Source: Enterobacter sp. 10-1 (lineage in GTDB: Bacteria; Pseudomonadota; Gammaproteobacteria; Enterobacterales; Enterobacteriaceae). From it: a stretch of 64,000 nucleotides of DNA. Below the pieces are notes generated by a model. The model did not search any database. It worked only from the letters and a program-made list of their open reading frames with translations, and was not told the origin of the DNA. The stretch spans positions 744,001 to 808,000 of the forward strand of contig NISF01000002.1 of assembly GCA_002270295.1 (NCBI GenBank). Reading direction: 5' to 3'. The translations under genes and the position numbers were made by a program. Shown here one piece after another: positions 35,740 to 42,139 of this stretch (the first letter of the stretch is position 1; every line of letters starts with the position of its first letter).

Positions 35740-36762
35740 TCAGGCGTTAACGTCGATCATCGTCTTAATTTCATTCGTCATCGGGAGCGTCCATGCTTCC
35801 TGGGCGCGCGCCAGCGGCAAACGTCTGCTTATCAAAATATCGGCGTTCAGCCTCTGCTCCTCCAGCGCCGCGATAACCGCAGGCCAGGTGAATTTATAGC
35901 GCATAACCCCGTGAATGGTGACTTCACGTTCTATCACCGCCGACATGGGAAAGCCGCCCACCTGTTCACCCACGCCGATCATGATTGCCCGCCCGCCGGA
36001 AAGTACGCTCAGACAGGCGTCGTGGCGCACGGACTGTACGCCCGTGCATTCCAGCAGCACGTCGTACTGCCGGTCGTTATCGGCCAGAGTGCTCAGCGTT
36101 TCAGCCCCCAGCTCATGGGCAATTTTGCGCCGCCCCTCCTGAGGCTCAACCAGCACCACTTCCGTGGCGCCCAGAGTTTTAGCGACCTGAACGGCGAATA
36201 ACCCCACCGGGCCGCCGCCGGTAACTAACACCCGGGAACCCAGGCCAATCCGTCCTTTTTGCGCCCCTGCCAGAGCGACTGAAATCGTTTCGACCATCGC
36301 CGCCGCGCCGTCGCTAATGGCGTCGCTGATAGCGTGCGCGTTGCCTGAAGGGACGCACAAATACTGCTGCATGGCGCCGTAGGTGCCCGGCACGCCGAAA
36401 AACTTCTGCGTCGGACAGATATTATAATTGCCCTGCACACAGTGCCGGCAGCGGCCGCAGGGTACCAGCGGATCCACCGATACGCGCTGCCCGACGCGGT
36501 GCGGCGAAATTCCCTGCCCCACCGCCACAATCGCACCGCCAAACTCGTGTCCCATAATCATCGGCGCGGTAATCATTTCGCTGCCGCAGCGCCCGTCGAA
36601 GTAAAAATGCTTATCTGAACCGCACACGCCGACCGAGCCGATTTTCAGCAGCACTTCCCCGGCCTGCGGCTGCGGCACGGCGGTGGTCCGTAGCTCAAGG
36701 GTTTCTTTCGCCATCAGGAACAGCGCGCGCTGGCTGTCCGGAATATCCGTTTTTAATTCCAT
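35740..36762 (-). CDS. Zinc-dependent polyol (sorbitol/idonate-type) dehydrogenase
   Basis: Medium-chain zinc alcohol dehydrogenase, 340 residues, most like sorbitol, xylitol or L-idonate dehydrogenases. Catalytic zinc ligands are Cys47 (GVCGSDKHFY) and His72-Glu73 (GHE), with Glu158 as a probable further ligand. Structural zinc cysteines are Cys102, 105, 108 and 116. The Rossmann motif is GGGPVG (182-187), followed by Glu206, suggesting NAD+ use. It begins 9 bp after the transporter gene with a GAGAGG Shine-Dalgarno. It probably oxidises a secondary alcohol of a sugar alcohol or aldonate; the substrate is unknown. Last gene of the five-gene operon. Confidence 0.85.
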   Translation of the reverse strand: MELKTDIPDSQRALFLMAKETLELRTTAVPQPQAGEVLLKIGSVGVCGSDKHFYFDGRCGSEMITAPMIMGHEFGGAIVAVGQGISPHRVGQRVSVDPLVPCGRCRHCVQGNYNICPTQKFFGVPGTYGAMQQYLCVPSGNAHAISDAISDGAAAMVETISVALAGAQKGRIGLGSRVLVTGGGPVGLFAVQVAKTLGATEVVLVEPQEGRRKIAHELGAETLSTLADNDRQYDVLLECTGVQSVRHDACLSVLSGGRAIMIGVGEQVGGFPMSAVIEREVTIHGVMRYKFTWPAVIAALEEQRLNADILISRRLPLARAQEAWTLPMTNEIKTMIDVNA

Positions 36763-36771
36763 AACGACCTC

Positions 36772-39809: not shown

Positions 39810-41243
39810 TTATACAATGCGGGTAGCCGTCACGCCGAGCAGGCTGGCAAGCTTTTCAAGCGTCGCACCGTGGTGCCCGATACCGATGGCGCAGTGATGA
39901 GCCGCCCCGCCGCGCGACCAGCTTTCGGTGAAGGCCCGGGCGCCGCAGGCAAAGCGGTAGCGGCTGTTGGTATTGCCGATATCCAGCACTTCTCCCGCCA
40001 GCGATTCCCCTTCGGCGTACTGCAAAATCACCCGGTTGTTAACGTCCTCCACCACCGACAGGAAGGTGACCGGCCCGTTGCGTACGCTCATCTGGATCGA
40101 GATCCCTTTGCCGGGCTTACCGTGATAAACCGGCAAAGGCACGAGGCGCACTTCACCCTCGGCCATCGCCGGATGAGCCGGGCCGTCATGCCCCCACAGC
40201 ACGACATCATCATCGAAATCAATGCCGTAAGGCTCGGCAAACGAGCCTCCGGCCCCGAGTAAAGAGAGAATTTTCATCGCGATAACGTTTTTAACTTCGT
40301 ACTCTCCAGCGACCGGAATATCCCGCCCGGTAAGCAGCGTATTGCCCAGAATCAGCGAGGTGACGATATTTTCATGGGCGCTGCCCGGCGTGCCTTCGTA
40401 GTAGTACGCCAGCGCGTGCAGTTTGTTTTCCCGGACCAGGTCGTCGAGGGCGACGGCGGTGTGCGTTGCCCGCAGCAGTTCCTGCTCATCACAGCTGTCA
40501 TCGATGACCAGCTTTTCCCTTATTTCCCGCCACTTCTCTTCTATTTGCCTGTCGGAAACCTGCTCGCGCCAGCTCAGCAGCTCGCACATCTCCAGCGGTT
40601 GGAAGCGAACGCCCAGCTTCGCTGAGAGGTTCGTCATGTTGGAATAGACGTCGTACATGCCGTTGTAGTAATGGCCCAGCACGCCAATCTGCGTCTGCGC
40701 CAGCTGCTTTTTCAGCGTCAGCGCCGTCAGCCAGGCGCGTGTTTCCCGCCAGACGTGGGGATCGTTGTGCAAAGCTCCGACGATCATTTCCCAGCTAATC
40801 CCGGCGCGATTAAAGACGTTCGCCAGCTCCGGCGCGCTGCACGCCTGGCAATGCGCCAGCCACTCGCCGGTGCGCGCCCCGCGATCGGGCAGATCGCGAA
40901 TCACGCTGTACGGCAACGTGCGATCCGGCTGGAGGGCAAGGATCAGCACCGGCACGCTGAACTGCTGCACCAGCGGCAGCACCGTGGAGCTCAGGGCATA
41001 GGTGCTGATGGCGATCACGATGACGTCCGGCGAAAACTGCCTGAGGCGCAGGGCCAACGCATCGCTTTTCTCCAGCGAATCCACCAGCCCGCCGTTCAGC
41101 ACAGTCAGCGAAGGCGCAGAGAGCTGCTCTTCAATCTCCTGCAGATAGCCCAGCAGGCGCTGTTCGAGGCCGCTGAACTGCGGCCAGTAGGTGTTGAGCC
41201 CGATACCAAACAGCGCGGTATTAAGCGTGGCGGGTGCGTTCAT
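39810..41243 (-). CDS. L-fucose/L-arabinose isomerase-superfamily protein, first paralogue
   Basis: Predicted metal-dependent sugar isomerase, 477 residues, paralogous to the next gene. Aligned features are [18 protein letters not shown] (residues 14-31), Glu314 or Glu316 ([14 protein letters not shown]), Glu337 (FAEPYGIDF), His352 and His357 (GHDGPAH), VYHGKPGKG (372-380) and His449/450 ([12 protein letters not shown]). The Glu-Glu spacing of 23 residues is identical in both paralogues when Glu314 is used. Its ATG overlaps the regulator stop codon (ATGA) with AGGAGA upstream, so expression is coupled to the regulator. Substrate unknown. Confidence 0.82.
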
Positions 41244-42139
41244 AGGTTGTCTCCTGATGAGGATAAATCGTCTGAGAAAGGAAAATGTCCGCGTCCCAGC
41301 CCCCGCGCCTGAAGCGCTCGTCGACAGTGGCTGGGGGACTGGTTAAAGCTTTTCTGAAAGATGACCGAGAAGTAGTTGCTGTCGCTAAAGCCGCTCACCG
41401 CCGCCACTTCTGCAATGGAGAGTTCGCTGGTGCCGAGCAGCGTTATGGCGCGGCACAGGCGGCGCTGCATCTGGTAGCGGCTGATGGTCATACCGGTTAT
41501 CTGTTTGAAGGCGTCGCGCACCGAACGCGGAGAGAGCTGATGCTGCGCGCAGAGGGATTCCAGCTCAAATTTCTCATTCAGCCGCGAGCCGAGGCTGGCG
41601 ATGACCAGATCGATATCCTGGCGGGCGTGAGAGGCCAGCTTGTCCGGCGCGTAGCGGTGGCGCATCAGCAGAAGCACCAGTTCGAGAAATATCGACTCGC
41701 TCAGGCGTAAAGAAACGGGGTCACGCCTGCCGCACTCGCCGGCCAGACGCTCAACGTGCTGGCGGATCAACGCCAGCGACTCCCGGGTTAATCGCCAGCT
41801 ACGGCTTTGCTGGTGGGTTTCCGTGCCGGGCAGCAGATTGTGCCAGTCGGTGCCCAGGCGCAGGCGGTCGCGGCAAAACAGAATGTTGCCCAGCTCGAGG
41901 TTATCGACCGACTGATAGTAATGGCTATCCTGCTGGGTCACATACAGCACGTCACCGTAGGTAATGCGGTACGGCAGTCCGTTCCAGATGTGTAATCCGT
42001 TCCCGCGCCAGACAATAACGATTTCGTCAAAATCATGGCGATGCAGAGGAAAGATATCCTGCGGGCAGCGGTGCTCCACCGCCACCGGATGGGCGGCACT
42101 AGTGAAGTAATCACTGCGCTTGAGCATTAAGGAGGTCAT
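41240..42139 (-). CDS. AraC-family regulator, RhaR-like
   Basis: Transcription regulator, 299 residues. The N-terminal cupin sensor domain closely resembles RhaR/RhaS ([20 protein letters not shown], then [15 protein letters not shown]). The C-terminal AraC/XylS double HTH is intact: [20 protein letters not shown] and [20 protein letters not shown] followed by [10 protein letters not shown]. It is the first gene of the operon and probably activates it in response to a sugar. The start codon has only a weak Shine-Dalgarno (GGGAA); a second in-frame ATG lies four codons on. Confidence 0.87.

Follow-up and report, generated by a model that had tools for sequence, protein, structure and literature searches.

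The window analysed here, a stretch of 64,000 nucleotides from Enterobacter sp. 10-1 (contig NISF01000002.1, positions 744,001 to 808,000), carries a five-gene operon between degS and mdh. The host belongs to the genus Raoultella. The operon is real and makes biological sense as an accessory sugar operon, a known kind of element, but it includes an enzyme family that has not been characterised. One of its two isomerases, isomerase A, is assigned by sequence to a rhamnose-linked family with the arabinose isomerase fold. The favoured interpretation, to which we give about an even chance, is that of a satellite operon for an L-rhamnose-type sugar, which would feed the separate rhaBAD locus of the host. 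The five genes are intact open reading frames (ORFs), all on the minus strand:

42139-41240, minus strand: AraC-type regulator, putative RhaR paralogue, first gene of the operon; 299 amino acids (aa) (NCBIfam RhaR/RhaS scores, tree)
41243-39810, minus strand: isomerase A, predicted Mn-type aldose-ketose isomerase of a rhamnose-linked arabinose-isomerase-fold family; 477 aa (PF11762, structure model)
39791-38391, minus strand: isomerase B, second predicted arabinose-isomerase-fold protein, of a rare separate clade; 466 aa (PF11762, structure model)
38220-36772, minus strand: sugar porter (SP) family transporter of the major facilitator superfamily (MFS); 482 aa (TIGR00879, PF00083)
36762-35740, minus strand: zinc-dependent medium-chain polyol/sugar dehydrogenase; 340 aa (PF08240, PF00107)

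The flanking genes are convergent, degS (plus strand) ending at 35692 and mdh (minus strand) at 42387. Gene order, strand and coordinates are those of the initial annotation, and domain searches agree with them; the tight spacing described there holds at only three of the four junctions. The genes of the regulator and isomerase A share 4 bp, and gaps of 18 bp and 9 bp separate isomerases A and B, and transporter and dehydrogenase, respectively, while 170 bp lie between isomerase B and the transporter. All five genes look functional, because dN/dS (the ratio of nonsynonymous to synonymous substitution rates) is 0.05–0.09 for each of them against two other Raoultella genomes, and the frames are intact in all three. 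These same figures make it very improbable that the operon is a useless passenger carried by recombination, as its patchy presence in three of 20 Raoultella genomes might otherwise suggest.

Isomerase A and its family

Both isomerases carry PF11762, the L-arabinose isomerase C-terminal domain, and a Pfam scan at 0.001 returned only Arabinose_Iso_C and Fucose_iso_C for them, with no match to RhaA (PF06134). The structure model of isomerase A (predicted local distance difference test score, pLDDT, 92) aligns with its best L-arabinose isomerase matches at template modelling (TM) scores of 0.83–0.85, and that of isomerase B (pLDDT 91) reaches 0.88–0.89 (0.88 to 4f2d); neither RhaA nor RhaI is among the 50 fold matches shown for isomerase A. 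The two are predicted with high confidence to adopt the full AraA fold. According to the alignments they also conserve four residues of 4f2d (E306, E333, H350 and H450) which we take to be metal ligands in this E. coli AraA. The likeness to AraA is one of whole-chain predicted fold and metal ligands, as Foldseek alignments give only 12–18% identity to solved AraA, the NCBIfam AraA model (NF002795) scores 61 bits for B and 34 bits for A, far under its cut-off of 622, and araB and araD are absent from the operon and from the 89 family loci described below. The best NCBIfam match of both proteins is sulfoquinovose isomerase (SftI/SqvD; NF048012), again far under cut-off (66 bits for B and 35 bits for A vs 700). 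SqvD is a FucI-family enzyme of the FucI/AraA superfamily with a 6-deoxy sugar as substrate, according to the accessible part of one report (PMC9594981), but none of the remaining operon genes looks like part of sulfoglycolysis.

In a tree of 92 family members and one AraA (a quick method, with long branches flagged; L031, L045, L067 and ORFs outside 421–559 aa left out), isomerase A is sister to copies from two other enterobacterial genera, in whose rha locus they sit (support 99). It is 48–55% identical to 27 family members and lies in a clade of 88 rows (support 99). Full matches to it occur in eight of 394 order-level genomes, including that of the window, with weak matches only in six more. 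Its nearest relatives (67–68% identity, in G158 and G369) are encoded on the rhaT strand about 200 bp upstream of rhaT, the identity of which is confirmed by Pfam, with sodA (recognised by eye) on the other side. In two further genomes (G130, G324) isomerase A lies 1.3–1.4 kb from RhaR on the same contig, and in another (G116) it is 76 bp from a GH106 rhamnosidase. No relatives of isomerase A were found in viral contigs.

A wider sample of loci drew on the best 80 of 548 confirmed relatives, ranked by similarity to isomerase B. Of 98 loci scanned, four had no isomerase ORF called (L063, L074, L086, L100) and five were excluded, three as Raoultella (L031, L032, L045) and two as carrying isomerase B (L046, L047), which leaves 89 loci outside Raoultella. 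Rhamnose markers were searched for by blastp at 1e-20. As most references came from these same loci, the exceptions being the host's own RhaT, RhaB and RhaD, the resulting counts are partly self-selected: 45 of the 89 loci hold at least one marker. By marker, 28 loci contain glycoside hydrolase (GH) family GH78, 22 GH106, 18 RhaT, seven RhaA, five the RhaS of ATP-binding cassette (ABC) transporters, four RhaB, three RhaI, two RhaD and one RhaEW. The marker-bearing loci span seven phyla (Bacteroidota, Verrucomicrobiota, Spirochaetota, Acidobacteriota, Deinococcota, Kiritimatiellota and Pseudomonadota). Marker identities were checked against NCBIfam, RhaT (509 bits) and RhaA (795 bits) scoring above cut-off, the ABC-type RhaS (337) just below 342, and rhamnulokinase (503) below 528; GH78 and GH106 were identified by domain matches.

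The markers are most frequent beside the isomerase gene, accounting for 42 of the 173 genes directly next to it, 20 of the 162 at distance two, 43 of the 296 at distance three to four, and 18 of the 323 beyond, and all 42 immediate neighbours among them share the strand of isomerase A. A marker-independent tally of Pfam families in same-strand neighbours within 300 bp (104 of 105 neighbours, one at L051 omitted; 25 of 78 and 25 of 58 families listed) was headed by GH78 (13), GH106 (13), RhaT (nine) and sulfatase (eight), and contained RhaA at least three times; other carbohydrate families listed comprised seven GH2 domains, partly within GH106 proteins, and two GH130/GH32-like ones. As a control, E. 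coli AraA/B/D and FucA/P/I/K/U matched none of the 89 loci at 1e-10, while FucO matched two, both of them canonical rha loci. In rhizobia and Devosia (L034, L037, L040, L059), members of the family are grouped into a unit with genes for an AraC regulator, a CocE/NonD-type hydrolase and an ABC transporter for sugars, which suggests an esterified or acylated sugar as source.

Two types of L-rhamnose isomerase, RhaA and RhaI, were distinguished by Rodionova et al. (2013) across 55 genomes, as given in the accessible part of that study (PMC3870299). Excerpts of other reports tie rhamnose isomerase activity in S. meliloti to RhaI, with no mention in the excerpt of the isomerase A locus on pSymB (PMC9025865), and name fucI and rhamA as methyl-pentose isomerases in Verrucomicrobiota (PMC8857213). 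Isomerase A resembles RhaA and RhaI in setting, as it adjoins them in several loci, but it has no Pfam RhaA match and co-occurs with these enzymes without replacing them. Among 35 genomes with isomerase A (29 isolates and six order-level genomes), RhaA is present in five, two weak matches that overlap RhaI positions (G1109, G1113) not being counted, and a full-length RhaI homologue in all 29 isolates. The single genome in which both are undetected is G116. Replacement of RhaA or RhaI as a general rule was rejected, because the other 34 genomes carry one or the other. In the 59 kb around isomerase A, G116 has rhamnosidases (GH78/GH106) and no marker match to RhaT, RhaA, RhaI, RhaB or RhaD, so that here isomerase A might do the first step.

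Because the family accompanies RhaA and RhaI, a metabolite-repair role is a serious variant for it. Isomerase A would then be a salvage enzyme returning to L-rhamnulose an off-path aldose, such as a C2 epimer of L-rhamnose made by loose RhaA or RhaI, and the operon would be an extended salvage unit. Precedents of a kind appear in the accessible part of one report (PMC9594981), where the distantly related SqvD isomerises a 6-substituted 6-deoxy sugar and YihS, a non-orthologous sulfoquinovose isomerase, makes the C2 epimer as a side product. Such a side product has no direct support in the present hosts, however, and in G116 isomerase A stands beside its GH106 rhamnosidase with neither RhaA nor RhaI detected. 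Salvage is, on balance, a rather improbable account.

Isomerase B has a different background. It shares a clade (support 94) with a protein from a Hyphomicrobiales metagenome-assembled genome (MAG; 52% identity) and one from an Actinomycetota MAG (43%). Outside Raoultella, none was found in the 394 order-level genomes, queried with isomerase A, which finds the window's own B at E 2e-69, and apart from the window's own copy no relative above the level of A (29–38% identity) appeared in 398 phylum-level or 369 class-level genomes. On the Actinomycetota contig (L047) the relative of B lies among genes recognised by eye as encoding an aldehyde dehydrogenase, an FGGY kinase, short-chain dehydrogenases and a cyclase-like protein. 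The initial annotation took A and B for tandem paralogues, and they are indeed adjacent homologues, 31% identical; the tree, which puts them in different clades, does not support a tandem duplication. Since the clades are separate, the pair was probably assembled from both.

Together, A and B could be the subunits of a single hetero-oligomeric enzyme, or could epimerise a sugar in two steps, from aldose through ketose to aldose. Their genes are 18 bp apart in the window and adjacent in all three Raoultella genomes, and both proteins retain the metal ligands and predicted fold. Elsewhere the two part company: the other enterobacteria with A have no B in their whole genomes, nor does B accompany A in the stretches examined beyond them, and the two short MAG contigs with B carry no A, which makes joint action of this kind distinctly unlikely.

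Regulator, host rha locus and the predicted pathway

The regulator scores 301, 279 and 253 bits against NCBIfam RhaR models, below their cut-offs of 363, 525 and 384, and 217 bits against RhaS. In a tree of 30 sequences, in which the program flagged long branches, it clusters with RhaR and not with RhaS (support 99/98). Its identity is 41% to the RhaR of the host and 41–47% to RhaR proteins, and we assign it as a RhaR paralogue. In placing its regulator first, the operon is reminiscent of rhaSR, which activates its own expression. A canonical rha locus lies on another contig of the host (rhaA recognised by model, rhaR and rhaS by similarity, rhaD, rhaB, rhaT and sodA by eye), and no isomerase A is encoded in it.

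The transporter scores 335 bits against TIGR00879, above the cut-off of 237.8, and 361 bits against PF00083. The dehydrogenase is under the cut-off of every NCBIfam model listed, and by sequence the nearest proteins of solved structure are sorbitol dehydrogenases, L-arabinitol 4-dehydrogenase and a ketose reductase. No kinase or aldolase is encoded within the operon itself. Gene content and domains support the view, put forward in the initial annotation, of a catabolic or interconversion operon for a sugar or polyol that lacks its own kinase and aldolase. The further suggestion made there, that the product enters a pathway encoded elsewhere, gains from the existence of the canonical rha locus, to which regulator and isomerase A both point.

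The operon is like the enterobacterial L-rhamnose locus (rhaBAD, rhaSR, rhaT) in its RhaR-type AraC activator and in isomerase A, the closest relatives of which are embedded in that locus in other genera. It is unlike it in lacking rhaA, rhaB, rhaD and RhaT, in having an SP-family MFS transporter instead, with a zinc dehydrogenase and a second isomerase added, and in its position at degS-mdh, apart from the host's canonical locus. A literature search, most subscription journals and preprints lying outside its coverage, found no description of the isomerase A family, its activity or the operon, nor any characterised pathway with a proven substrate that the operon matches. One paper that pairs the term arabinose isomerase with GH106 has it in its reference list alone.

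If the operon is a satellite of the rhaBAD locus, its proteins might act as follows. The RhaR paralogue would sense an L-rhamnose-like sugar and switch on its own operon, and the MFS porter would import this sugar or the corresponding polyol. Isomerase A may then interconvert the aldose and ketose forms of a 6-deoxy-L-hexose, either L-rhamnose and L-rhamnulose or a stereoisomer, in whichever direction the pathway runs, while isomerase B would have another aldose or ketose as its substrate. The zinc dehydrogenase would link ketose and polyol, and the ketose could leave through the host's RhaB kinase and RhaD aldolase, encoded on the other contig.

Several observations weigh against this scheme. 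The sample of loci is not random, because the relatives on which it drew were ranked by similarity to isomerase B, and 44 of the 89 loci have no rhamnose marker in the available DNA, several of the contigs being short; the markerless ones include all seven Hyphomicrobiales plasmid loci, both Pantoea plasmid loci, and the isomerase A loci of G226 and G256. All control markers were E. coli proteins, which are perhaps less sensitive in distant phyla. Across the 394 order-level genomes, RhaA is found in seven of eight genomes with isomerase A and in 46 of the 386 others (Fisher p = 4e-6), but the host's own family shows less contrast, 7/7 vs 18/27 (p = 0.09), so that shared ancestry explains part of the link. 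No rhamnose marker accompanies the two relatives of isomerase B, and the neighbourhoods of relatives of the transporter and dehydrogenase (plasmid neighbours, four loci) give neither a rhamnose link nor a clue to the substrate. Upstream of the operon, a RhaR-type inverted repeat (17-bp inverted half sites with a 17-bp spacer) was also looked for; none stood out, and none was consistent across the three genomes. The best 17-bp inverted pairs match at 10–11 of 17 bases with spacers of 14–20 bp, differing between genomes, and the best listed pair with a 17-bp spacer matches at nine.

Such findings leave some room for a substrate unrelated to rhamnose, a rare sugar or polyol such as a pentitol or a different hexose; the operon would then have recruited its RhaR-like regulator and isomerase A from rhamnose systems, with a change in their specificity. 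The modest identity of the regulator to RhaR proteins would fit this, as would the origin of isomerase B in another clade, the rhizobial relatives of isomerase A, whose units (AraC regulator, sugar ABC transporter and, in some cases, CocE/NonD hydrolase) contain no rhamnose marker, and the closest solved relatives of the dehydrogenase, which, judged by their names, act on sorbitol, L-arabinitol and xylitol. Against it, the Raoultella isomerase A is sister to copies inside a rha locus, and rhamnose is the strongest signal of the isomerase A family across phyla. An unrelated substrate is accordingly a doubtful alternative, though one to be reckoned with, and the satellite operon for an L-rhamnose-type sugar is preferred.

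Noncoding features and probable exchange at the degS-mdh site

Three noncoding features were noted in and around the operon:

42337..42360, minus strand: terminator-like hairpin after mdh, separating mdh from the operon; GC-rich stem of 10 pairs with a T run behind it, neither stem nor loop varying among three genomes
42277..42293, minus strand: tentative CRP-like (cyclic AMP receptor protein) sequence upstream of the operon; invariant in three Raoultella genomes, the likeness judged by eye
38221..38390, minus strand: 170-bp gap between isomerase B and transporter; transporter-proximal part conserved (three-genome alignment)

The CRP-like stretch shares 15 of 17 bases with the region upstream of the isomerase A gene in G369, a level reached by 4 of 200 shuffles, uncorrected for 14 comparisons. 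A sigma-70 scan gave no promoter-like sites, with 2.1 expected, and therefore no promoter is claimed. At the gathering threshold Rfam has no family in the operon or in the 170-bp gap; its only match in the window is the small RNA ArcZ (18399-18507, plus strand).

In 20 listed E. coli records degS and mdh are adjacent, as the initial annotation stated for K-12, since a single place of about 670 bp covers both gene ends there. For Raoultella, the positions of the two genes were matched in 20 genomes and the larger gaps then read. Isomerases A and B are present in three (the window's genome, G000, with G009 and G018), each time between degS and mdh. Eight genomes have a different island at this place, contiguous in six of them and read in the others from both contig ends (G010) or from the degS end only (G017); judged by eye, its products are presumably a pair of GntR regulators, a transporter for anions, a tartrate/fumarate-type dehydratase made of two subunits, and subunits of oxaloacetate decarboxylase. 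In the other nine the site is essentially empty, with about 58–277 bp between the matches to degS and mdh. The degS-mdh interval is a variable site in Raoultella, at which metabolic modules are swapped. An insertion there is therefore unsurprising as such, and the idea that it is unusual in itself is not supported.

Within the genus, the operon has most likely been exchanged recently as a unit, or cassette, between lineages. The closest named relative, among the best 80 of the 548, is Raoultella ornithinolytica NBRC 105727 (L045), and synonymous divergence from it is 0.06–0.15 for the five operon genes, compared with 0.55 for mdh and 0.64 for degS. Against G018 the order is reversed (operon 0.21–0.43, mdh 0.18, degS 0.19). 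Nucleotide identity to R. ornithinolytica gives a similar picture, the operon being mostly 94–99% identical and degS and mdh 88–89%. In steps of 250 bp it rises from about 0.90 to 0.98 at 35750, is 0.91–1.00 and mostly >0.94 across the operon, and drops to 0.91 at 42251–42500 and then to 0.82, so that the change falls at the operon edges. The contrast in synonymous divergence is the stronger evidence for exchange, because the identity peaks are not unique to the operon; stretches at 30501–31000, 32251–32750 and 43251–43500 also exceed 0.94.

Implications for rhamnose metabolism

The most interesting part of these results is the rhamnose-linked isomerase family that the operon has exposed, more than the operon itself. 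We tentatively propose, at somewhat less than an even chance, that isomerase A represents a third, unrecognised isomerase family of L-rhamnose metabolism, located beside rhamnose genes in at least seven phyla and working alongside RhaA or RhaI with a reaction of its own, perhaps on a stereoisomer of L-rhamnose or L-rhamnulose, and that Raoultella has built around it an exchanged five-gene side pathway with a second isomerase and a polyol dehydrogenase. An isomerase with an intact metal site, which adjoins rhamnosidases, RhaT or RhaA in seven phyla and is by sequence not a rhamnose isomerase, implies that a step or a substrate is missing from the rhamnose pathway. As L-rhamnose is a sugar of plants and algae, such a step would bear on how pectin, plant glycosides and polysaccharides of algae are broken down. 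The Raoultella operon offers a compact, genetically tractable route to it, and is also an example of a metabolic cassette swapped at a fixed chromosomal site.

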